This document shows positions 7,974-64,000 of a stretch of DNA of 64,000 nt, piece by piece. A model generated the notes under the pieces. It searched no databases. It was not told the DNA's origin and was given only the letters and a program-made list of their open reading frames with translations. The first letter of the stretch is position 1; each line of letters starts with the position of its first letter. Both the position numbers and the translations under genes were made by a program. Where the stretch lies: assembly GCA_030019365.1 (NCBI GenBank), contig JASEFA010000003.1, forward strand, positions 1 to 64,000. The letters run 5' to 3'. Origin of the DNA: Bacillota bacterium (GTDB lineage: Bacteria > Bacillota > Sulfobacillia > JACIYH01).

Positions 7974-8845
7974 AGCGCGAGTGCGCGTCCCCCGATGCCA
8001 TGCGGAGGGAGATCGCCCCTCTGGCCGGACGGGGTGGGGAGATGGGGAGGGAAGAGTGGCTGCGGCTGGCCGACCGGCTGGCCTCCTGGGAGGCGCCCGC
8101 ACCTGACGAAGCAGCCGTGCACGATTTCGTGGCCGCACTTAAGGAGCACCCCGTGGGAAGCACGGCCGGGGCGGGATTCCGGGAGTGCCTGCAGGCAGCC
8201 CGGGCCGCCCGCCCGGGGGGACTGGTGGGCCTCCTGTACTGGTTGCTCCCACAGGTGAGGCTGGTGGGCTGGCCTTTCTGGGCGGTGAGTGCGGTGGTGG
8301 TGGCGCTGGGGGCGCTGGTGACCTACGCCTGGGCCGAGGCCGGGGTGCTCCCGGTGGTGTTCCTGGCACCGCTGCTGGCGGCCCTGAGCGTGTGCTACAG
8401 CTTCCGCTTCGAGAGCCCCGAGTGCCGCGAGGTGGAACTCTCCTGCACCATGACGCCGGGCCTGCTGGTGTGGGGGCGGCTGGCCATAGTGGTGGGATAC
8501 GACGTCCTCCTCTCGGTGGGGGCCAGCCTGGCCCTGCTGGGGTGGTCCGATCCCCGGCTGGTGTGGCAGGTGGTGCTGAGCTGGATGGCTCCCCTGCTGT
8601 TCCTCTCCTGCCTGGCGCTGGGGATTTCCCTGCGCTGGGGATACTGGTACGGCACCACCGCGGTGGTGCTCCTGTGGGGATTGCAGGTATTCCTGCGCCG
8701 GCAGCCGGGATGGATTTCGCTGCTGGTGTTGCCGGGCGAACCGCGCTGGACGGCCGTGCAGGTGGCGCTGTGGGCCATGGCCCTCCTGGCCGCCCTGTGG
8801 TCGGCCGGTATGGTGCGTTGGGTGGGGAGGCCGCAAAGTGGCTGA
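7970..8845 (+). CDS. Six-helix membrane protein in the anti-sigma position
   Basis: A 291-residue protein whose ATG overlaps the stop of the ECF sigma gene (ATGA). Residues 1-75 form a soluble, helical, charged N terminus (EEWLRLADRLASWEAPAPDE and AAVHDFVAALKEHP). Six hydrophobic helices follow from about residue 88 to 285 (for example WPFWAVSAVVVALGALVTYA, LPVVFLAPLLAALSVCY and WTAVQVALWAMALLAALW). Anti-sigma factors of ECF systems are usually encoded directly after the sigma gene and pair a cytoplasmic helical N terminus with a membrane anchor. The topology fits, but no HxxxCxxC zinc motif or other anti-sigma signature is visible. It could instead be a permease subunit serving the ATPase at 8976. 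Membrane topology is firm; the role is inferred. Confidence 0.6.
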   Translation: MKRECASPDAMRREIAPLAGRGGEMGREEWLRLADRLASWEAPAPDEAAVHDFVAALKEHPVGSTAGAGFRECLQAARAARPGGLVGLLYWLLPQVRLVGWPFWAVSAVVVALGALVTYAWAEAGVLPVVFLAPLLAALSVCYSFRFESPECREVELSCTMTPGLLVWGRLAIVVGYDVLLSVGASLALLGWSDPRLVWQVVLSWMAPLLFLSCLALGISLRWGYWYGTTAVVLLWGLQVFLRRQPGWISLLVLPGEPRWTAVQVALWAMALLAALWSAGMVRWVGRPQSG

Positions 8846-53717: not shown

Positions 53718-54890
53718 TCATTCGAAGCGGAGCGCCTGTATGGGATCCAGGTTGGCGGCCCGGTTGGCCGGGTACATGCCGAAGAAGATGCCCACCCCGG
53801 CGGAAAAGAGGAAGGCCAGCAGGACCGTGGTCACGGGAATGGCTGCGCTGACGCCGATGGCCCCCCCTGCTCCGTGAGCGAGGACGAGGCCGACCACGAT
53901 GCCGGCGATCCCGCCCAGGCCGCTCAGCACGGCCGACTCGATGAGGAACTGCACCAGGATGTCGCGCTTGCGCGCCCCCAGGGCCTTGCGGATGCCGATC
54001 TCGCGCGTGCGCTCGGTGACCGAGACCAGCATGATGTTCATGATGCCGATGCCTCCCACCAGCAGCGAGATGGCAGCTATTGCCGCCAGCATCATGGTCA
54101 TGGTCCCGGTCACCTGGGTGACCGTCTCCAGCATCTGAGTCTGGCTGAATATCCTGAACGCATCCGCGTCACGGAACCGCGTGGTGAGCCTCTCCCCGAT
54201 GGCGGCCATGAGGGTGTCGACGGCGGCCGGATCCCGGCCCTTCACGTAGACGGTGCGGACACCGCGGCTCTCCACCAGCCGCTGGGCGGTGGTGGCGGGT
54301 ACGATGACCTGGTCATCTCCGGACCCCATCATGGTGCTTCCCTGCGGGGAGAGCACGCCCACCACCAGGAAGCTGTGGCCGTTGATCTTGATCTCTTCTC
54401 CCACGGGGTCGGTAAAGCCGAATAGCTCGCTGACGACGGTCTGGCCCAGCACCACCACGCTCTGCCAGTATTCCACGTCGAGGGGTGCCAGGAAGCGGCC
54501 CTGGGCCACCCCCATGCTGCGGACCTCGGCCAGATTGTGATCCGTGCCTACCAGGCTGGTATCGTGCTCGCGGGTGCCGTACTTTACCGTAACCGAACCC
54601 GAGACGACAGGGGCGGTAGCGACGGCCTCGGGCAGGTCGGCGGTGAGGTCACGCGCTTCCCGGTAGCTGAGGGCGGTCTGGGCCCCGCGCCCACGGATGT
54701 TCACCGTAAGCAGGTAAGATCCCAGGGACTCGATCTGGGCCCTGATCTGGTTTTGAGTGCCCTGACCTATGGCGACCAGCCCGATGACCGCCGCCACCCC
54801 GATGGTGACTCCCAGCATGGTGAGAAACGACCGTAGCTTGTTGGCCAGGATGCCCCCCAGGGCAACCCTGACGGAGGCGAGCAGGTCCAT
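53718..54890 (-). CDS. MacB-type ABC exporter permease
   Basis: A 390-residue FtsX-family permease. It begins [20 protein letters not shown] and [19 protein letters not shown], the standard first helix; a large extracytoplasmic domain (about 45-265) of MacB type follows. Three helices close it: [20 protein letters not shown] with [43 protein letters not shown], and [19 protein letters not shown], ending [17 protein letters not shown] 54890 is one base from the ATPase stop. Works with the ATPase and the adaptor upstream, most likely exporting peptides, antibiotics or lipoproteins. Confidence 0.95.
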
Positions 54891-54891
54891 C

Positions 54892-55569
54892 CTACGCCAC
54901 CCTTTCGTCTCCGACCAGTGAGCCATCCTGCAGCCTGAGCAGTCGCCCCGCCCGCCGGGCCACAGCCATGTCGTGGGTGACGACCAGCAGGGTCCGACCT
55001 GCCGCGTGCAGTTCCGCAAAGAGGTCCAAGATCTCCCCTCCCGACCGGCTGTCCAGGTTGCCCGTGGGCTCGTCGGCCAGGATGACGGCGGGGTCACCGG
55101 CGAGAGCGCGGGCTGCGGCGACGCGTTGTTGCTCCCCCCCGGACAGCTGGCTGGGCAGGTGGTGGAGGCGGTCGCCCAGCCCCACCCTTTCCAGGCACTC
55201 GCAGGCCCGGGCGTACCTGGCCGCGGGCTTGACGCCGCGGTAAAGGAGCGGCAGCTCGACGTTCTCCACCGCCGTCAGCCGGGGGAGCAGGTTGTAGCTC
55301 TGGAACACGAACCCTATCTTGCGGTTGCGGATGCCGGCCAGCTCGTCCGGGCGCAGCCCGGATACCTCGGAGCCGTCCAGGTAGTAGGTGCCGCCGGTGG
55401 GCACGTCCAGGCACCCCAGCAGGTGAAGCAAGGTGGACTTGCCCGATCCGGAGCGCCCGATTACGGCCACGAACTCGCCGGTGGCGATGTGGAAGCTGAT
55501 GCCCCTCAAGGCTTCCACGCTCACCGTCCCCAGGCGGTAGGTCTTGCTGAGGTTATCGACCCGGATCAT
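54892..55569 (-). CDS. MacB/LolD-type ABC exporter ATPase
   Basis: A 225-residue ABC ATPase of the LolD/MacB class. It starts [20 protein letters not shown] with Walker A in GRSGSGKST, the Q-loop in [20 protein letters not shown], signature [15 protein letters not shown], Walker [18 protein letters not shown] and H-loop in [17 protein letters not shown] and DEPTGNLD are class hallmarks. ATG 55569 is inside GGATCATGCC with CCTTTC... upstream; the start MIRVDNL fits the family. It overlaps closely with the adaptor gene (17 bases) and touches the permease. Confidence 0.96.
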
Positions 55570-55585
55570 GCCTGCCACCCTTTCC

Positions 55586-57301
55586 TCAGCGCGGCCCCGT
55601 GCCGCTGCCCTGGCGCCCGGGGGCCATGGGGAAAGCACCGGGTATGCCGGTCGGCCTCCAGGGAGACCCGTTGCCGCCCTGCCCGCCAGCCGAGGCTGCG
55701 TAGAGCACGAGCACCTGGTCCCCCTCCCGCAGGCCGGCCGTGATCTCCGCCACGGTCGGGCTCACCAGGCCCACCTGGACCGGGACGGTACGGGCGCCGG
55801 CGGGAAGCCCCGCCCTGGTGCCCCCGGGCATGGCGGTGCGGTCTCCCGGAAGGGATGTGGCCCCCCGCTCGCGGGCTCCCGCAGAGGATGTGCCCGGCTC
55901 GCCGCCGCCCCCACCGCCTGGCACCCACACGATGTACTCGCGGCCCCGCTGCTGCACCGCCTCCACGGGGACCAGGAGTGCGTCCTGCTTGGCCGCAACC
56001 TCCACCTTCACTTCCACCGTCATGCCGGCACGCAGCTGACCGGGGTCGGACACCTCAACGGTGACGTCGAACACCCCCACACCGCCCTGCGTGCGCCCCT
56101 CCTCGGCCACCGCGGCCACCCTGCCCCGGAAGGTCTGCCCCCGGAGGGCCTCGGTGGTAAGGACCGCCTGCTGGCCCACGGAGACGCTGGAGATGTCCAG
56201 TTCGTCGATGGGTACCACGACCTCGAGCTGCCCGTAGCTGGCGACCACGGCCACCACCGTGTTACCGGAGACTTCATCGCCTTCTGCCACGGGCAGGTCG
56301 ACCACGGTGCCGTCAATCGGTGCCACCACCCTGGTAGAAGCCACCTGGTCCTCCAGAGAAGCCACGTCCAGTTGCGCCTGCTCGACCCGCAACCTCTGGG
56401 ATTCGATCTGGTCGTCCAGGTCCTCACTGGCCAGCACGGCCAGGACCTGACCGCCTTCCACCCGGTCGTTTTCCCTGGCCTTGACCTGAGCCACCGTACC
56501 CGGGGCCGCCGCCCGCACCTCCACGGGACGGGGGTCAGAAAGGGTCGAGGTCTGCACGGCGGAAAGCTTGCCCGCCGGGGTTTCCACGTAAGCCTGGGCC
56601 GTCGTACCGGGGGTCAGGCCTCCGGGGTTCTCGATGTCGATAGTCACCGGATAGAGCACCGCACCGGACCCGGCCGCCTCCCCCAGCCGGTTGACGGCGG
56701 TCACCTTGCCCGGCACGGTGCAGGTATAGTCGGGCAGGAACACTTCCGCCGGCTGCCCTGCCTCGATCTTGTCGATCTGGGCCCGGGTGAAGCGAGCCAC
56801 AAGCTGGATGCGCGTGTCATCGGCAATGGTGGCGATGAGGCTGCCTTCCGCGACCCGTTGGCCCTCCGTGATGGGGAGGGTGGCCAGGCGGCCGCGGAAC
56901 GGTGCCCTGACCGCCAGGGAATCGCGTTTGCGAAGGAGATCTTCCAGGTCGCGCCGGGCCTGCTGCAGACTCAGGCGGGCCTTCTCGAGTTGCAACTGCG
57001 GGTTCTCGCTGGACAGTTCGAGCAGCAGCTGTCCCGCGCTCACCCTTTCCCCTTCTTTGACCGCCACCTGCACCACGCGGCCATTCACTCTCGGCCGCAG
57101 CTCTTTCCGGCTGGCAGCGCGTACCGTCCCCGTGCCCTGGACGCTGACCTCTATGGGTCCTCGCCGCACGGCTACGGTGCGGTAGGGCACCTGCTGGGAG
57201 GACGCGGCCGTTCTCCCCTGCCACCAGCGCCACGCTCCCAGGATGGCGCCCAGCACCAGGAGGGCCGCCACCCACGTTTGCCACCGTCTCAGCCACGCCA
57301 T
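55586..57301 (-). CDS. MacA-type membrane fusion protein with duplicated lipoyl units
   Basis: A 571-residue periplasmic-adaptor-like protein of the HlyD/MacA family. An N-terminal helix (WVAALLVLGAILGAW) anchors it. Two consecutive lipoyl-type half-motif sets occur: RPRVNGRVVQVAVKEGERVS with VRAPFRGRLATLPITEGQRV, and later AAAPGTVAQVKARENDRVEG with VVAPIDGTVVDLPVAEGDEV. Each set has its own coiled-coil helix pair (LQLEKARLSLQQARRDLEDL and IESQRLRVEQAQLDVASLED). Such tandem adaptors are unusual; one set is the norm. A barrel domain and Gly-rich insert (PGGGGGGEPGTSSAG) follow. ATG 57301 lies behind GGGGGTGCGAG, downstream of the repeat box at 57367. Confidence 0.92.
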   Translation of the reverse strand: MAWLRRWQTWVAALLVLGAILGAWRWWQGRTAASSQQVPYRTVAVRRGPIEVSVQGTGTVRAASRKELRPRVNGRVVQVAVKEGERVSAGQLLLELSSENPQLQLEKARLSLQQARRDLEDLLRKRDSLAVRAPFRGRLATLPITEGQRVAEGSLIATIADDTRIQLVARFTRAQIDKIEAGQPAEVFLPDYTCTVPGKVTAVNRLGEAAGSGAVLYPVTIDIENPGGLTPGTTAQAYVETPAGKLSAVQTSTLSDPRPVEVRAAAPGTVAQVKARENDRVEGGQVLAVLASEDLDDQIESQRLRVEQAQLDVASLEDQVASTRVVAPIDGTVVDLPVAEGDEVSGNTVVAVVASYGQLEVVVPIDELDISSVSVGQQAVLTTEALRGQTFRGRVAAVAEEGRTQGGVGVFDVTVEVSDPGQLRAGMTVEVKVEVAAKQDALLVPVEAVQQRGREYIVWVPGGGGGGEPGTSSAGARERGATSLPGDRTAMPGGTRAGLPAGARTVPVQVGLVSPTVAEITAGLREGDQVLVLYAASAGGQGGNGSPWRPTGIPGAFPMAPGRQGSGTGPR

Positions 57302-57366
57302 ATTCGCTCGCACCCCCAGTACTCGGGCCCGGTGCACTTCCGTCGCTAACTTGCTACCACAGGAAC

Positions 57367-57416
57367 GTGAAGACAGTGTGAAGGTGCGGTGAAGATCCCG
57401 TGAAGATCCCGTCAAG
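57367..57416. promoter_or_regulatory. Five 11-bp direct repeats, response-regulator box
   Basis: GTGAAG occurs at 57367, 57378, 57389 and 57400, and GTCAAG at 57411, spaced exactly 11 bp. On the minus strand the unit reads CTTCAC-N5, like the TTCAC cores of PhoP-type OmpR-family regulators, which bind 11-bp direct repeats. It lies between the divergent macA and S-layer genes, just upstream of a TATAAT for the S-layer side. Confidence 0.85.
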
Positions 57417-57425
57417 CACCCTCCC

Positions 57426-57431
57426 TATAAT
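57426..57431 (+). promoter_or_regulatory. -10 element of the S-layer gene promoter
   Basis: Perfect TATAAT, nine bases after the last repeat of the response-regulator box. The -35 position (57403-57408) lies within the repeats and is not consensus, as expected for an activator-dependent promoter. Confidence 0.65.
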
Positions 57432-57436
57432 CCCCT

Positions 57437-57710
57437 GGACAGGCTGCCGGGAACAAAATACCCAGGGTCTGCGTCACAAAGGGAAGGAACGGCGATCACT
57501 CCAGGTAGAGGTCAAGCTACCATATAGCAACTCCCCAGCAGGAAAATTGCGGGCGGACAGCGAATAGCTTCCTCCAGCACATTTTCCGGGGGAGGGATGG
57601 CCTCGCCCGGAGTAAGCGTTGAAGAAGGAGGGGGTGGGACTCACACAGTGCGAGACATCCATTCAAAGGGCCAGAGGACTCTCAATGACGTGTAAAGGAG
57701 GTTAGAAGAC
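57437..57710 (+). promoter_or_regulatory. Long 5' leader of the S-layer gene with strong SD
   Basis: If transcription starts near 57437 the leader is about 270 bases, without a credible ORF. It ends with AAAGGAGGT (57694-57702), the full anti-16S sequence, eight bases before GTG 57711. Long leaders are common in S-layer mRNAs and may stabilise them. I see no known riboswitch fold in it. Confidence 0.55.
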
Positions 57711-60083
57711 GTGAGAAAAGCCTTAGTGGCAGCCCTGGTACTTACCTTCGTACTCTCCATCGCTGCCACTGCCAGCGCGGCGGTGCTTACGCCGGCCAGC
57801 TTCCCCGATGTGAAGGGGCAGGCCTGCGCCGACGCCGTCGCCAAGCTGGAAGCCCTCGGCGTCGGCAAGGGCATCGACGGCCAGTGGATGCCTGAACTCC
57901 CCGTGAACCGGGCTCAGTTCGCCACTTTCGCGGTGCGCATCATGGGCCTGGAGCGTGTTGCGGCTTACCTGAAGGGCGCCACCAAGTTCGCCGATGTGCC
58001 AGCGGACCACTGGGCCAGCGGCTACATTAACGTAGCCGTGGCAAAGAAGCTGGTCCTCGGCTATCCGGACGGGACCTTCCACCCCGACGAGACCATCACG
58101 TTCGCCCAGGCGGCCACCATGCTGGGGCGTGTGGTGGGATACGTCGATCTGCCTGGGGACTGGCCGGCCAACTACATGATCGTGGCCAGTGAAAAGAACC
58201 TGTTCAGCGGGGTTACCTTCGGGGCCGGTGACGTCGTGAATCGCGGGGACATGGCCATTCTCCTGGCCAACGCCCTAGGCGCCACCAAGGTTAAGCCCTC
58301 GGCTGACTTCCCGGGCGTGTACGATGAGACCTCCACTGCCCTCATGAAGGCGTCCTTCAACCTTGACCTGCCGGCTACTGCCATTCTCAACGCCAACGCC
58401 GACGTCGACGCCTCGTTGACCGGGCAGGAGGTCCTGCTTGGGAGCACCAAGTACACCATGCCCGCGGGGGTTAACACCGCGGCGCTGCTCGGGCACGAGG
58501 TCAAGTTCATAGCCGACACCACCAGCTACAAGGTGCTCTATGCTGAAGATGTCACTGCAGCAAGCAACATCGTTACCGGAACGCTGAACGGCGATGCCGC
58601 TTCGACGTCCTTCAAGATCGGTGACATCTCGTACAATCTGGGCGCAGCGACCGTCTTCGTGAACAAGGCCAAGGTCAGTGGAGACGTCTACCTGGCCCTG
58701 AAGAACGGCATGGACGTCACGGCCTTCCTGGGTGCTGACGGCACGGTGCGCTTCGTGGTCGGCTTTGCGTACGACGTCAGCGACGCTAAAGTAGCTGCCG
58801 TCGACACCACGAACAAGACGATTACCGTTGGCGGCACGGCTTATGCAGTTAAGGCCAACACGACCATCACCAAGAACGGCAGTCCGGCCACCTTGAGTGA
58901 CGTGCAGGCGGGGCAGATCATCTACATCGCCTGCGCCCGTGGCGCTAACGGTGCGGTCACCACAGACGCGCTTTACGTGGCCGTGTTCGACAAGACCGTA
59001 TCCGGTACCGTAACCGGAGTTCGGGTGGCATCTGATGCGACATACGTGAAGCTGGGCGGCACCGACTACAAGGTGAGCGCCAAAGCTGAGGGTACACTCG
59101 ACGGTACCAACCTGGACACGAACGGTAACGCCGGCCTGCAAGTCGACGAGCTGAGCAAGCTCTTTAGCTTCGCGGTGACTGCTACGCTTAACAAGGACGG
59201 AGCACTCAGAATCCTGGCCGGAAGCACCGTGGGAACGGTTGGGCTGTACGCCGATAAGGAAACCACTGCCGACGGTAAGACGCTCGTCAAGGTGGATGTC
59301 AAGGGCAACATCGTGAAGATCGAGGATGCCCGTACGAGCCCCACCTACCCGACACTCGTCGGGACGCCTGTCCTCGCCAAGACCAACGCGTCGGGCAAGC
59401 TGACCGATCTGGAGACGTTGGTGCTGGTACCCGGTGGTGCCAGCAACATAACCGTGGACGCGGTGAGCAGCGCTGCCCGGCAGTTGACCGCGGCCGGGAA
59501 CGTGCTATCTGTCTCCGCGGACGCCTTCTTCAAGAAGGGAACGAGCTACGTCGCGCTGGACGGGGTCAAGGTAGGGGACAAGGTATCGCTGTATGCCGAG
59601 ACCTCCGCCGGTGCGGTACTCTACGGTGAGTTGTTCCCGGTGGTGGTAGTGGCCGGGAATGCGTACGGCAAGTACCTCGGGTACTCCGTGGATGAGTCCG
59701 GTGCGGTCACTGCCTATGTGGACGTCAAGGGCAGCACGGTGAGCTACGAGGTGTACCTGAACCAGGCTCCGGCTGTCAGCGTGGGCGACTTCGTCTACGG
59801 TGAGGTCCGCAGCGATGGTAAGATCCAGAACGTCGGCAAGTTCACCGTGCCTGATTACGATGACGCAGAGATCCTGGCGATCAACGACGACGGTAGCCTC
59901 ACCATCACGGGTGGGGTAGTTATCAGCCTGGCGAACGCCAGCCTGTACGACACCGACGCTGCTGGCAAGGTCGCGATTCAGGCCAGCGCCCTGAAGGTCG
60001 GCGACAAGGTCGACGTCTACAAGGGTACCGGTGCTGACGCCAGCAAGTACGTCGTGGTGCAGAGGGTGGCGCTCGCTCCGTAG
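57711..60083 (+). CDS. S-layer protein with three SLH domains
   Basis: A 790-residue exported surface protein. A signal peptide (residues 1-23, KALVAALVLTFVLSIAATASA) precedes three SLH repeats: about 30-75 (FPDVKGQACADAVAKLEALG), 90-135 (FADVPADHWASGYINVAVAKK, in part DVPADHWASGYINVAVA; LVLGYPDGTFHPDETITFAQ) and 150-200 (VNRGDMAILLANAL). SLH domains bind pyruvylated wall polymers. About 590 residues of beta-rich modules follow, with recurring patterns of the TYLVKLG-type (for example VSGTVTGVRVASDATYVKL), poor in Cys. Compared with neighbours it is richer in Asn, Lys, Thr and Ala codons ending in C (AAC, AAG, ACC), the mark of a very highly expressed gene. GTG start after AAAGGAGGT. Confidence 0.95.
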   Translation: MRKALVAALVLTFVLSIAATASAAVLTPASFPDVKGQACADAVAKLEALGVGKGIDGQWMPELPVNRAQFATFAVRIMGLERVAAYLKGATKFADVPADHWASGYINVAVAKKLVLGYPDGTFHPDETITFAQAATMLGRVVGYVDLPGDWPANYMIVASEKNLFSGVTFGAGDVVNRGDMAILLANALGATKVKPSADFPGVYDETSTALMKASFNLDLPATAILNANADVDASLTGQEVLLGSTKYTMPAGVNTAALLGHEVKFIADTTSYKVLYAEDVTAASNIVTGTLNGDAASTSFKIGDISYNLGAATVFVNKAKVSGDVYLALKNGMDVTAFLGADGTVRFVVGFAYDVSDAKVAAVDTTNKTITVGGTAYAVKANTTITKNGSPATLSDVQAGQIIYIACARGANGAVTTDALYVAVFDKTVSGTVTGVRVASDATYVKLGGTDYKVSAKAEGTLDGTNLDTNGNAGLQVDELSKLFSFAVTATLNKDGALRILAGSTVGTVGLYADKETTADGKTLVKVDVKGNIVKIEDARTSPTYPTLVGTPVLAKTNASGKLTDLETLVLVPGGASNITVDAVSSAARQLTAAGNVLSVSADAFFKKGTSYVALDGVKVGDKVSLYAETSAGAVLYGELFPVVVVAGNAYGKYLGYSVDESGAVTAYVDVKGSTVSYEVYLNQAPAVSVGDFVYGEVRSDGKIQNVGKFTVPDYDDAEILAINDDGSLTITGGVVISLANASLYDTDAAGKVAIQASALKVGDKVDVYKGTGADASKYVVVQRVALAP

Positions 60084-60098: not shown

Positions 60099-60131
60099 GG
60101 GGGGCGCGATGAGCGCCCCCCAATTGCTTTA
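60099..60131 (+). terminator. Terminator of the S-layer gene
   Basis: GGGGGGCGC (60099-60107), loop GATGA, GCGCCCCCC (60113-60121), then AATTGCTTTATAT. The open ATG at 60109 lies in its loop and is unlikely to start translation. Confidence 0.85.
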
Positions 60132-60147
60132 TATGGGGGGTTTGACG

Positions 60148-61563
60148 GTGAGGAGCACGCGCGGTCGCGGGGTTGCACTTGCCCTTGTCCTATTAACGGT
60201 GGTGGCATCTCTTGGCCTGATAGTGCAGGGTTCGCGTGTTGCTTCGGGCCAGGGCGAGGTTGGCGGCGGGCCTGGCGAGGCGGCCTTCCGGCAGGCAGTG
60301 GCCCTGGTGCAGGGTCTTGCATTGCGGCCGGTTCCGGTGGAACGTCTGTGGCGCGGCGCCCTCGAGGGCATGGTCAGGGCATTGGGAGACCAGTATTCGG
60401 CGTACCTGTCTCCAGAGGCGGTTAAGGCTTTCGTGCAGGGGGTGGATAGGACGTTTGAGGGGATCGGGGTGACCATCGAAGTCCGGGACAGTTACGTGAC
60501 GGTGGTGTCCCCCATCCCTGGCTCGCCCGCGGAGAGAGTCGGTCTGCGGTCGGGAGATCGTATCTTGAAGGTCGATGGCGAAAGCGTCAGTGGGCTGGTC
60601 CTGGAGGAGGTGGGGTCCAGGATCCGGGGACCTGCCGGGACCAAGGTGGTGCTGGAGGTTGCCCGGCCGGGGACAGAGGGTGCGTTCCAGGTGGTTGTGG
60701 AGAGGGCTCAGGTGTCGCTCCCTAGCGTGGAGTGGCGGCCCCTAGGGAACGGGGTGGGGTACATCCGTGTCGTACAGTTCAGTTCCGGTTCCGGTCGGGA
60801 CTTCGGGGAAGCACTGGCTGCCTTGCGCCGTGACCACAGGGTGCGCGGGCTGGTGCTGGACTTGCGCGACAATGCCGGGGGCATCGTAGGCGAAGCTAGC
60901 GAAGTGGCGTCGCTGCTGGTGCCTTCGGGCCCGATCGCGTTGCTGGTCCAAAGAATCGAGGGAGATAGGGTGTTGCGCGTCGACGGGTCTGGGCCCTCCC
61001 TGCCTGTGGCCGTGCTGGTCAACGGGGGCACGGCCAGCGCAGCCGAGCTGTTGGCGGGCGCGATCCGGGATCGCGGGTTGGGGGTGCTTGTAGGCTCCCG
61101 TACTTTTGGTAAGGGAACCATGCAGGGCCTGTACCCGCTGCCCGACGGGGGGGCCCTCAGGCTGACAGTGGCGGCCTATCTCACTCCCGGGGGGCATTAC
61201 ATCGAAGGCCAGGGACTCCGGCCAGATATCGAGATCCCCGAGGAGTCCACGCGGTTTCCCCGGAATCAGGCCTTGAATTGGCAAAGGGTGCTGAAGAGAG
61301 GGGCCATCGGGCTTGATGTCCTTTCATTGCAAGAGGCGCTCGAGGAGCTGGGGTTTGATTGTGGTGAACCCGACGGCATATTTGGGCCCAGGACCGAGAG
61401 GGCTGTGCGCGCCTTTCAAGCGGGCAGGGGCATGAGGCCTACCGGGGTGGTCGATGAAGCCACGCTGCGCGAAATCGGTCGACCACCGGCGCCGAACGGT
61501 CCAGATGTTGCTCTCGCCCGAGCAAAGGAGTGGGTGTTGGACAGGCTTGGTGGCGCCCGCTGA
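60148..61563 (+). CDS. S41 carboxyl-terminal processing protease with peptidoglycan-binding domain
   Basis: A 471-residue exported protease of the CtpA/CtpB family. A signal anchor (VALALVLLTVVASLGLIVQG) leads to a helical N-terminal domain, a PDZ domain (about 95-180, FEGIGVTIEVRDSYVTV and GSPAERVGLRSGDRIL), and the catalytic core: Ser in VLVNGGTASAAELLAGA and Lys in GSRTFGKGTMQGLYPL, with VLDLRDNAGGIVGEA before them. The C terminus is a PG-binding-1 domain (LQEALEELGFDCGEPDGIFG, RTERAVRAFQAG). GTG 60148 is chosen because GGGGGG and the hydrophobic helix follow; ATG 60109 and 60133 lie in the terminator. First of three S41 copies in tandem. Confidence 0.93.
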   Translation: MRSTRGRGVALALVLLTVVASLGLIVQGSRVASGQGEVGGGPGEAAFRQAVALVQGLALRPVPVERLWRGALEGMVRALGDQYSAYLSPEAVKAFVQGVDRTFEGIGVTIEVRDSYVTVVSPIPGSPAERVGLRSGDRILKVDGESVSGLVLEEVGSRIRGPAGTKVVLEVARPGTEGAFQVVVERAQVSLPSVEWRPLGNGVGYIRVVQFSSGSGRDFGEALAALRRDHRVRGLVLDLRDNAGGIVGEASEVASLLVPSGPIALLVQRIEGDRVLRVDGSGPSLPVAVLVNGGTASAAELLAGAIRDRGLGVLVGSRTFGKGTMQGLYPLPDGGALRLTVAAYLTPGGHYIEGQGLRPDIEIPEESTRFPRNQALNWQRVLKRGAIGLDVLSLQEALEELGFDCGEPDGIFGPRTERAVRAFQAGRGMRPTGVVDEATLREIGRPPAPNGPDVALARAKEWVLDRLGGAR

Positions 61564-61566
61564 GGT

Positions 61567-62110
61567 TGGGACACCTGTGGGGGGCGGGCGCTGGTGCTCG
61601 AGCTGCGTGATAACGGGGGCGGGCTGGTGGATGAGGCGGTGACGGTGGCGCGGCAGCTGGTGCCGACGGGGCCGGTGGCGCACATCATCGGTAAACAGTC
61701 GAGCCAGGTGGTGAAGGCGGAGGGGCCGGGGCTGGGGCTGCCCATCGTGGTGCTGGCGAACAAGGGGACGGCCAGCGCCTCGGAGATCCTGGCGGGGGCC
61801 CTGGTGGATCGGTGCAAGGCGGTGCTGGTGGGGTCGCCCACCTTTGGCAAGGGATCGGTACAGGCGGTGATCCCCCTGGGCGGAGGGAGTGCGGTGAGGC
61901 TGACCACCGCCAGGTACCTGACGCCCAACGGGCACGTGCTAGAGGGGAACCCCCTGAAGCCCCAAATTCTGGTGGAGGAGGAAGATAGGGGGCCGAAGCC
62001 GAAGTTCTCCTGGCGGAGACCTCTAAAAGTGCTCACCGTAGGGCTGGATGTGCTGGCGGCGCAGGAACTGCTGCGGTGGCTGGGCTACCCCGTGGCGTTG
62101 GGGGAATTCG
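61567..62110 (+). pseudogene. Gutted S41 protease copy
   Basis: The plus strand reads LVLELRDNGGGLVDEAVTVA, then PIVVLANKGTASASEILAGAL with the catalytic Ser block and VGSPTFGKGSVQAVIPLG with the Lys block, then LTVGLDVLAAQELLRWLGYP, the beginning of a PG-binding domain. There is no signal peptide, N-terminal domain or PDZ before it, and the PG-binding domain stops after about 20 residues where the next S41 gene begins. It lies four bases after the first copy. I read it as a copy deleted at both ends, not a gene; it keeps high GC3 and no internal stops. Confidence 0.75.
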
Positions 62111-62116
62111 GTCGGG

Positions 62117-63517
62117 ATGCGGGTGAAGAGGCGGGTCAGTGTTGCTCTGGCTTGCGTGGTGGGGGTCAGCCTGCTGGGGCTGGCCATGCTGGGGCCGTCG
62201 GGGCCGGGCGGGGCGCAGAGCCCCGGTTCCGATGGCCTGGCTGCCTTCCTGACCGCGGTGCAGTTGATCAGAGATAAGGCGGTATCGCCCTTCAACGAGC
62301 GCACGGCCTGGGATGTGCTGCTTGAGGCGCTGGTGAGGGCGCTGGGTGACCCTTATGCCGAGTACATACCCGCAGGGGAATATGCCGGGTTGCGGGATGC
62401 GGGTACAAGCGGCATCGGCATCATGGTGGACGTGGTACGGGGCGAGCCCACCGTGGTGGCGGTGGCGGCGGGGTCCAGCGCCGAGAGGGCGGGGATCGTC
62501 CCCGGCGACGTGATCCTGGAGGTGGCGGGGTGGCCGGCGTACGGGCTGTCCGCGGGGGAGATCGAACGGCTCACGCGGGGAGCGGCGGGGTCGCAGGTTA
62601 CGCTCCTCCTGCGGCGTTCGTCGGGGGCGCTCAGCCGGGTGACGTTGCGGCGGCAGGAGATGCCCGCGCAGAGCCTGCGGCTGCAGATCCTGCCCGGTGA
62701 CGTGGCGTATTTGCGCGTCTCCCGCTTCGAGGAGGGGACGGGTCGCGACTTCCGCGGGCTGGTGGACGTGCTGCGCGACTGGGGCATCCGCCGCTACGTC
62801 CTGGACCTGCGCAACAACCCGGGCGGGCTGGTTTCCGAGGCGGTGGAGGCGGCGCAGGCCTTCGTCCCCGCCGGCGTGGTGGGGTTCGCCATGGACCGGC
62901 GTGGCAAGCTGGAGGTCCTGCGCTCTTACTCCTCCCGTTGGGACTTCAACCTGGTGGTCCTGGTGGACCAGGACACGGCCAGCGCGGCGGAGCTGGTGGC
63001 GGGGGCGATCCAGGACCGGGGCGTGGGCAGGGTGGTCGGGACCCGCACCACGGGCAAGGCGGCCGTCCAGAACGTGTTCCCCCTCCCCAACGGGGGAGCC
63101 CTGCGCATTTCCGTGGCGCGTTACCTGACGCCCAGCGCCCGCTCCATATATGGGACGGGGATCACGCCCGACGTGGTGGTGGCGGGGCGGCGGCCCCTGG
63201 GCGATGAGGTGGAGTTGCCGCTTCTCCCCACGGGGACGACCCTCAGGTACGGTTCCCGCGGCTCGGGCGTGCGGGCGCTGCAGCAGTACCTGGCGGCTTT
63301 GGGGTTCGATCCCGGTCCCATCGACGGGATCTTCGGGCCCCGCACCCAGGGCGCGGTGGTGAGATTCCAGCGCTGGGAGGGCCTGTCACCCTCGGGGGTG
63401 GCGGACGCTGCCACCCTGGCCGCCCTCAGGCGCGCTCCGTTCGACTGGCCGCGGGTCCGCCCCGCGGGACAGGATCCCCAGCTTGACCGGGCGCTGGAGC
63501 TCCTGGGTGCCCGCTGA
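62117..63517 (+). CDS. S41 carboxyl-terminal processing protease, third tandem copy
   Basis: A 466-residue protease like the one at 60148. The signal anchor is VKRRVSVALACVVGVSLLGLAM; a helical domain and a PDZ domain follow (GIGIMVDVVRGEPTVVAVAA, AERAGIVPGDVILEVAG). The Ser lies in VLVDQDTASAAELVAGAIQD and the Lys in GTRTTGKAAVQNVFPLPNG, with VLDLRNNPGGLVSEAVEAA before. A PG-binding-1 domain ends it (LRYGSRGSGVRALQQYLAAL, GPIDGIFGPRTQGAVVRFQ). ATG 62117 lies within GTCGGGATGCGGGTG, and GTG 62123 is the alternative; the SD is poor. The two intact copies differ strongly, so the duplication is old. Confidence 0.92.
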   Translation: MRVKRRVSVALACVVGVSLLGLAMLGPSGPGGAQSPGSDGLAAFLTAVQLIRDKAVSPFNERTAWDVLLEALVRALGDPYAEYIPAGEYAGLRDAGTSGIGIMVDVVRGEPTVVAVAAGSSAERAGIVPGDVILEVAGWPAYGLSAGEIERLTRGAAGSQVTLLLRRSSGALSRVTLRRQEMPAQSLRLQILPGDVAYLRVSRFEEGTGRDFRGLVDVLRDWGIRRYVLDLRNNPGGLVSEAVEAAQAFVPAGVVGFAMDRRGKLEVLRSYSSRWDFNLVVLVDQDTASAAELVAGAIQDRGVGRVVGTRTTGKAAVQNVFPLPNGGALRISVARYLTPSARSIYGTGITPDVVVAGRRPLGDEVELPLLPTGTTLRYGSRGSGVRALQQYLAALGFDPGPIDGIFGPRTQGAVVRFQRWEGLSPSGVADAATLAALRRAPFDWPRVRPAGQDPQLDRALELLGAR

Positions 63518-63660
63518 GCGGGTGACGATGCAACATTTGGCTCGGGATTGGCGTCATATACCGGGAATGGGGGACCGCGCCTGCGCCCGTTGCGGTGGCG
63601 TCAGCGGGCGCGCGGTAAGCGCGGGAGGCGGGCGCGTGCGGGCTGGCGGTGCGGGAGGGG

Positions 63661-64000
63661 GTGGGCATCATTCCGCTTGTGGTATTGCGGGAGGTGGAGA
63701 AGAGCTACCGCATCGGCAAGGTGGAGGTGCCGGCCCTGCGGGGGATCACGCTGGAGGTGGAGGAAGGCGAGTTCACCTCGGTGATGGGTCCCTCCGGGTC
63801 GGGTAAGTCCACGCTGCTGAACATCATTGGGTGCCTGGACCATCCCGGTCGGGGCACTTACATACTGGGCGGCAGGGAGGTCAACGGCCTGGGGGATGCC
63901 GCCCTGGCCGCCATCCGCAACCGCATGCTGGGGTTCGTGTTCCAGAGCTTTCACCTGCTGCCCCGCATGACGGCGCGGCAGAACGTGGAGCTTCCCCTGG
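63661..64000 (+). CDS. MacB/LolD-type ABC ATPase (runs off the window)
   Basis: The first 113 or so codons of an ABC ATPase reading VVLREVEKSYRIGKVEVPAL, with Walker A in GPSGSGKST, then NIIGCLDHPGRGTYILGGRE, and the Q-loop in [35 protein letters not shown] and FVFQSFHLLP place it in the LolD/MacB class, like the ATPase at 54892 but distinct in sequence. GTG 63661 (behind CGGGAGGGG, spacing short) or GTG 63679 starts it. The gene continues past 64000, so a permease and an adaptor may follow. Confidence 0.92.
   Translation, partial: MGIIPLVVLREVEKSYRIGKVEVPALRGITLEVEEGEFTSVMGPSGSGKSTLLNIIGCLDHPGRGTYILGGREVNGLGDAALAAIRNRMLGFVFQSFHLLPRMTARQNVELPL

Follow-up and report, generated by a model that had tools for sequence, protein, structure and literature searches.

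A five-unit 11-bp repeat upstream of macA as a likely operator of a Spy-linked OmpR-family regulator in an S-layer bacterium

Main finding

A five-fold 11-bp direct repeat lies between a MacA-type exporter gene and an S-layer gene in the window, the whole stretch of 64,000 nucleotides that was analysed. It is most likely an operator of a PhoB/OmpR-family regulator, read on the minus strand, with the macA-ABC-macB operon as its target. The operator is predicted to activate this operon, and its binder is most likely the regulator encoded outside the window at C1:327767-328441, in an operon for a Spy/LTXXQ protein, a PpiC-type foldase, this response regulator (RR) and a histidine kinase (HK); we give this reading a probability of about 0.77. 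The result is a regulator-operator pair that can be tested, and with it a small envelope-stress regulon predicted for an S-layer bacterium about which little is known. Moreover, a common promoter layout allows a MacAB exporter to be assigned to a regulator to which it is not linked.

The repeat array

GTGAAG recurs at 57367, 57378, 57389 and 57400, followed by GTCAAG at 57411, in steps of exactly 11 bp, and the array ends nine bases before a TATAAT; all of these positions agree exactly with the initial annotation. On the minus strand the units carry TTCAC cores, and the features of the array and the exporter operon are as follows.

57367..57416, minus strand: predicted operator of five 11-bp units (from direct reading, shuffles and comparison with G002)
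Units of the operator, minus strand, distal to proximal: CTTGAC at 57411-57416, then CTTCAC at 57400-57405, 57389-57394, 57378-57383 and 57367-57372
57351..57356, minus strand: predicted -10 hexamer of macA, TAGCAA (TAAGAA in G002), exactly 10 bp past the last CTTCAC, the same gap as at other predicted promoters
55586..57301, minus strand: macA, membrane-fusion protein (HlyD_3, HlyD_D23, Biotin_lipoyl_2), with its ATG 49 bp past the -10 hexamer
54892..55638, minus strand: ABC ATPase of a MacAB-type exporter
53718..54890, minus strand: MacB-type permease (MacB_PCD, FtsX), its start (MDLLASV) picked by eye within the longer open reading frame 53718-55097

The five-fold repeat is not due to chance. 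In shuffled sequence of 64 kb, 0.01 matches to three consecutive units with at most three mismatches are expected, whereas the window has three, which overlap and all fall in 57367-57416. With a two-unit matrix, the same place is the top template match in the window, scoring 28.9 against 14.7 at the next separate place, and a pattern scan of the whole 2.94-Mb genome found a comparable array at only one other locus, C1:216.6 kb. An Rfam search of the region around the box found no RNA element; its two matches, mir-661 and IRES_Bip, were far below their gathering scores. It is highly improbable that a neutral 11-bp minisatellite explains the array. Two adjacent 11-bp periods have the spacer GGGAT in common, as a minisatellite would, and the array at C1:216.6 kb looks minisatellite-like, with another repeat in its place in G002; however, the CTTCAC cores persist while the spacers vary within and between species, and the distance from box to -10 hexamer is maintained in several families.

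The macA promoter and its conservation

A -10-like hexamer for macA lies on the minus strand 10 bp past the last CTTCAC and had been overlooked in the initial annotation. In the relative G002, whose macA product is 90% identical, the orthologous gene is preceded by CTTCAC-CAGAT-CTTCAC-ATTGT-GTTCAC, the same ten bases (GTTCCTGTGG) and then TAAGAA, so that the three proximal operator units are conserved together with the 10-bp gap and the -10 hexamer. The earlier proposal of a box of the OmpR/PhoB family, whose TTCAC cores are read on the minus strand, is supported. The proximal unit would replace a -35 element at a fixed short distance from the -10: N10 followed by TANNNT or TANNAA is found at the promoters of the genus and in G037, G052, G015 and G040, and a search for a consensus sigma-70 promoter found none. 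The hexamer TAGCAA of the window is weak, which counts against the preferred explanation.

In G002, about 300 bp of other DNA lies between the macA box and the S-layer leader. Because macA of G002 retains the box while the S-layer leaders of G001 and G002 lack it, the box travels with macA. Scanning the contigs of the window genome with MacA returned distant matches only. A second MacA-like gene is located at C3:64453, to the right of the window, with S41 peptidase genes at 60109-64000 and beyond; gene order in G001 (L056) is similar to this stretch.

The Spy-linked regulator and its predicted targets

The pattern TTCAC-N6-TTCAC-N10-TANNNT, with one mismatch allowed, occurs at 10 places in the three members of the genus (the window genome G000, G001 and G002), and the reversed pattern at none. 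One of these places is the operon at C1:330.3 kb of the window genome, and the orthologous operons of G001 and G002 are also among them. The products of the operon are a Spy/LTXXQ protein, a foldase of the PpiC/SurA type (found in G000 and G002), a response regulator of the OmpR family (Response_reg and Trans_reg_C) encoded at C1:327767-328441 and a histidine kinase. The kinase is predicted to have two membrane segments, with about 140 residues outside the cytoplasm between them. The promoter layout is present at the regulator's own operon in G000, G001, G002, G037 and G052, and weakly in G054 (P = 0.034). Further boxes precede a gene for a DUF2680-like secreted protein in G000, G001 and G002 (its Pfam match is below the gathering score), a gene for an HtrA-like trypsin/PDZ protease in G000 and, as a single box, a DUF4405 gene in G001. 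G001 also has a partial HtrA-like homologue just upstream of the Spy box (L057, C32, upstream of 7636), which is 75% identical over 171 residues with one in-frame stop. The predicted targets come from scanning the genome for near-exact patterns, few mismatches being allowed, and the list of them is hence incomplete.

The regulator and macAB are also linked genetically in relatives. In G001, G037 and G052 a single cluster, Spy-RR-HK-MacA-ABC-MacB, has the box promoter before Spy, and in G015 the regulator gene is divergent from macAB, with TATCAC-N5-TATCAC-N10-TAGGAT upstream of macA. In G060, macAB is followed by a more distant RR-HK pair. In the MacA tree the window protein groups with those of G002, G054, G060 and G032, and the MacA proteins encoded in Spy clusters fall outside this clade. 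A second exporter lineage thus carries the box, and one type of regulator is tied to exporters of more than one lineage. Because its own operon has the same promoter, its orthologues are clustered with macAB and further boxes lie at envelope genes, the Spy-linked regulator is the likely binder.

A matrix trained only on promoters of the genus was applied to other families, with 2000 dinucleotide shuffles per region. Low probabilities were obtained in G037 (P = 0.0005), G052 (P = 0.0005), G040 (P = 0.0015), G015 (P = 0.0035) and at Spy of G054 (P = 0.034). Fisher's combination of the five promoters gives 1.9e-9, which overstates the case because the regions were not chosen blind, and the test is partly circular, since some of the promoters had been seen before the template was written. 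Among regions listed as uncertain, G067 (P = 0.001) and G060 macA (P = 0.0065) gave low values, and G030 and G032 did not. The G054 macA region gave P = 0.18, its TTGACAC-type 11-bp repeats not being recognised by the matrix.

Comparative sequence analysis shows the repeats with their conservation, spacing and orientation, and the linkage of the genes; from these we infer the following mechanism. The kinase of the Spy operon would sense damage to the cell envelope, and the phosphorylated regulator would bind the 11-bp units head-to-tail. Occupying the position of a -35 element, the bound regulator may then bring RNA polymerase to the -10 hexamer, which lies ten bases beyond the last unit. Autoregulation would follow from the presence of this site at the regulator's own operon, and MacAB would form the exporter arm of an envelope-stress regulon, alongside the DUF2680-like and HtrA-like genes.

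Alternative targets and binders

The initial annotation proposed the S-layer gene, the macA operon or both as the target. The macA part is borne out by the conservation in G002, the orientation of the units and the 10-bp gap; the S-layer part is not, and the features that bear on it are these.

57422..57710, plus strand: conserved S-layer leader, whose identity to G001 and G002 ends at about 57422, short of the box
57426..57431, plus strand: TATAAT, a possible -10 hexamer of the S-layer gene, not conserved (TCTAAT in G001, TGCAAT in G002)
57711..60083, plus strand: gene for an S-layer-homology (SLH) protein, which we do not regard as a target of the box

Activation of the S-layer gene by the box from the TATAAT at 57426, whether in addition to macA or in its place, is quite unlikely. 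The plus-strand CGTGAA-type units likewise end 10 bp before the TATAAT (shuffle P = 0.007), and the gene is divergent from macA across a short gap common to both. Against this, the leader shares 93% identity with that of G001 and 94% with that of G002, the sequence further upstream is unrelated, and neither the box nor the TATAAT is present at these orthologous leaders, from which we conclude that the S-layer gene is probably not the target. The forward score is also low, 2.7 against the window-best 28.9 on the macA strand with the two-unit matrix (the scales differ), and at the other predicted targets it is always the TTCAC strand that is directed towards the gene, the non-conserved array at C1:216.6 kb being the one exception. 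Perfect TATAAT hexamers occur three times in the window, this one included. The long leader matches no Rfam family above threshold, and the proteins behind it diverge, with 71% identity in G001 and 38% over a part in G002. A broader scheme seems improbable: a Cpx/Bae-like regulon (Spy, PpiC, HtrA-like, DUF2680-like and MacAB) with an expanded five-unit operator on which the regulator polymerises, and which would also set the divergent S-layer promoter in the window species. If true, it would couple surface-layer production to envelope stress there.

Regarding the binder, another OmpR-family regulator could take the place of the Spy-linked one or bind as well, most plausibly the paralogue at C3:342994-343656 beside a copper-type P-type ATPase gene, and macAB would then belong to a metal response. 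The paralogue shares about 61-64% identity and the core of the recognition helix with the Spy-linked regulator, it follows the P-type ATPase gene in each of the three genomes of the genus (read by eye), and the Pfam family for heavy-metal resistance is among those matched by Spy-type proteins. Nevertheless, this seems unlikely, since no good template match lies within 10 kb around its gene in the three genomes, whereas the operon of the Spy-linked regulator has one, and it is the orthologues of the latter that are clustered with macAB. Binding by WalR or PhoP is very unlikely, although both are of the OmpR family. The recognition helices are VDVTVRRLREKI in WalR, VDVHVRWLREKI in PhoP, VDTHVKNLREKL in the Spy-linked regulator and VDAHVKNLRQKL in the C3:343-kb paralogue, and the cores of the first two (VTVRRL in WalR, HVRWL in PhoP) are unlike HVKNL of the Spy-linked regulator. 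WalR, which the initial annotation had put forward, also differs in its published site, TGTWAH-N5-TGTWAH (PMC9210968), the window site being CTTCAC-N5; its helix, VDVTVRRL, and this site both speak against it. PhoP seems to use the same layout at pstS of the window genome (L153, about 230-300, C2), where 11-bp units GTTAAC...CTTAAC...CTTAAC-N10-TAGAGT probably form a PhoP box with a TTAAC core. In Streptomyces the PHO box reads GTTCACC (PMC4415409), yet the units at pstS are CTTAAC and not CTTCAC.

Comparison with known systems

PHO boxes consist of 11-nt direct-repeat units in which the core is conserved and the spacer less so; the core is GTTCACC for Streptomyces PhoP (PMC4415409). The window array resembles PhoB/PhoP-type boxes in such units, but its predicted binder is not a phosphate regulator, the targets are envelope-stress genes and macA has five units. 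In Mycobacterium tuberculosis, PhoP binds TCACAGC repeats cooperatively head-to-tail, and three and four motifs are bound more tightly than two (PMC4832192); given this, the simple reading of five units is a higher affinity or cooperativity.

BaeSR controls spy in Escherichia coli, and BaeR is the best PDB relative of the Spy-linked regulator, a likeness that consists in the best PDB sequence match only. In Acinetobacter baumannii, BaeSR affects macAB-tolC expression, but EMSA did not reveal direct binding of BaeR at macA (PMC4498774), whereas here macA has a clear box, and Spy and a foldase are encoded together with the regulator in one operon. The envelope-stress system CpxAR is also comparable: CpxR of Pseudomonas aeruginosa recognises the direct repeat GTAAA-N5-GTAAA, with cpxP and efflux targets (PMC12802237), and the reverse complement of the window core, GTGAA, is one base off GTAAA, although core sequence and unit spacing differ. 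In Gram-positive bacteria, MadRS of Enterococcus faecalis controls a MacAB-like three-gene exporter, madEFG (PMC10614854); its sensor is coupled to a Bce-type transporter, and in the parts of that source available to us no linkage to Spy, foldase or HtrA was found. Similarly, Streptomyces CutRS/CssRS exert two-component control of HtrA-type proteases in secretion stress (PMC12802291), but the CutR site is TAWATAAA and not an 11-bp TTCAC repeat, and MacAB was not found in the accessible part of that account. The molecular kind is known, and the regulon in this lineage appears to be undescribed; a limited literature search did not turn up the present system, which is weak evidence of absence. 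The predicted regulon suggests that the Spy/HtrA/foldase/efflux logic of Cpx and Bae extends to this distant lineage.

Related arrays

At C1:216581-216641 (L096, about 2582-2641), 11-bp GTGAAC units lie directly upstream of a TTGACA-N17-TAGCAT promoter and a lipoprotein-like gene. This array was rejected as a second target: it has the opposite orientation and no -10 hexamer at the right gap, and it is absent from the G002 orthologue, which keeps TTGACA-N17-TAGCAT and has a different repeat upstream, GGCGGATGGTGGGGAG. A template match with a score of 18.3 lies near a regulator gene at C1:667 kb (L076). Upstream of macA in G054 (L060, about 8350-8450), the 11-bp repeats TTGACACATTC-TTGACACAGTT-TCGACACAGTT may be the same operator in diverged form, and the regulator of G054 has the recognition helix HIKRL.
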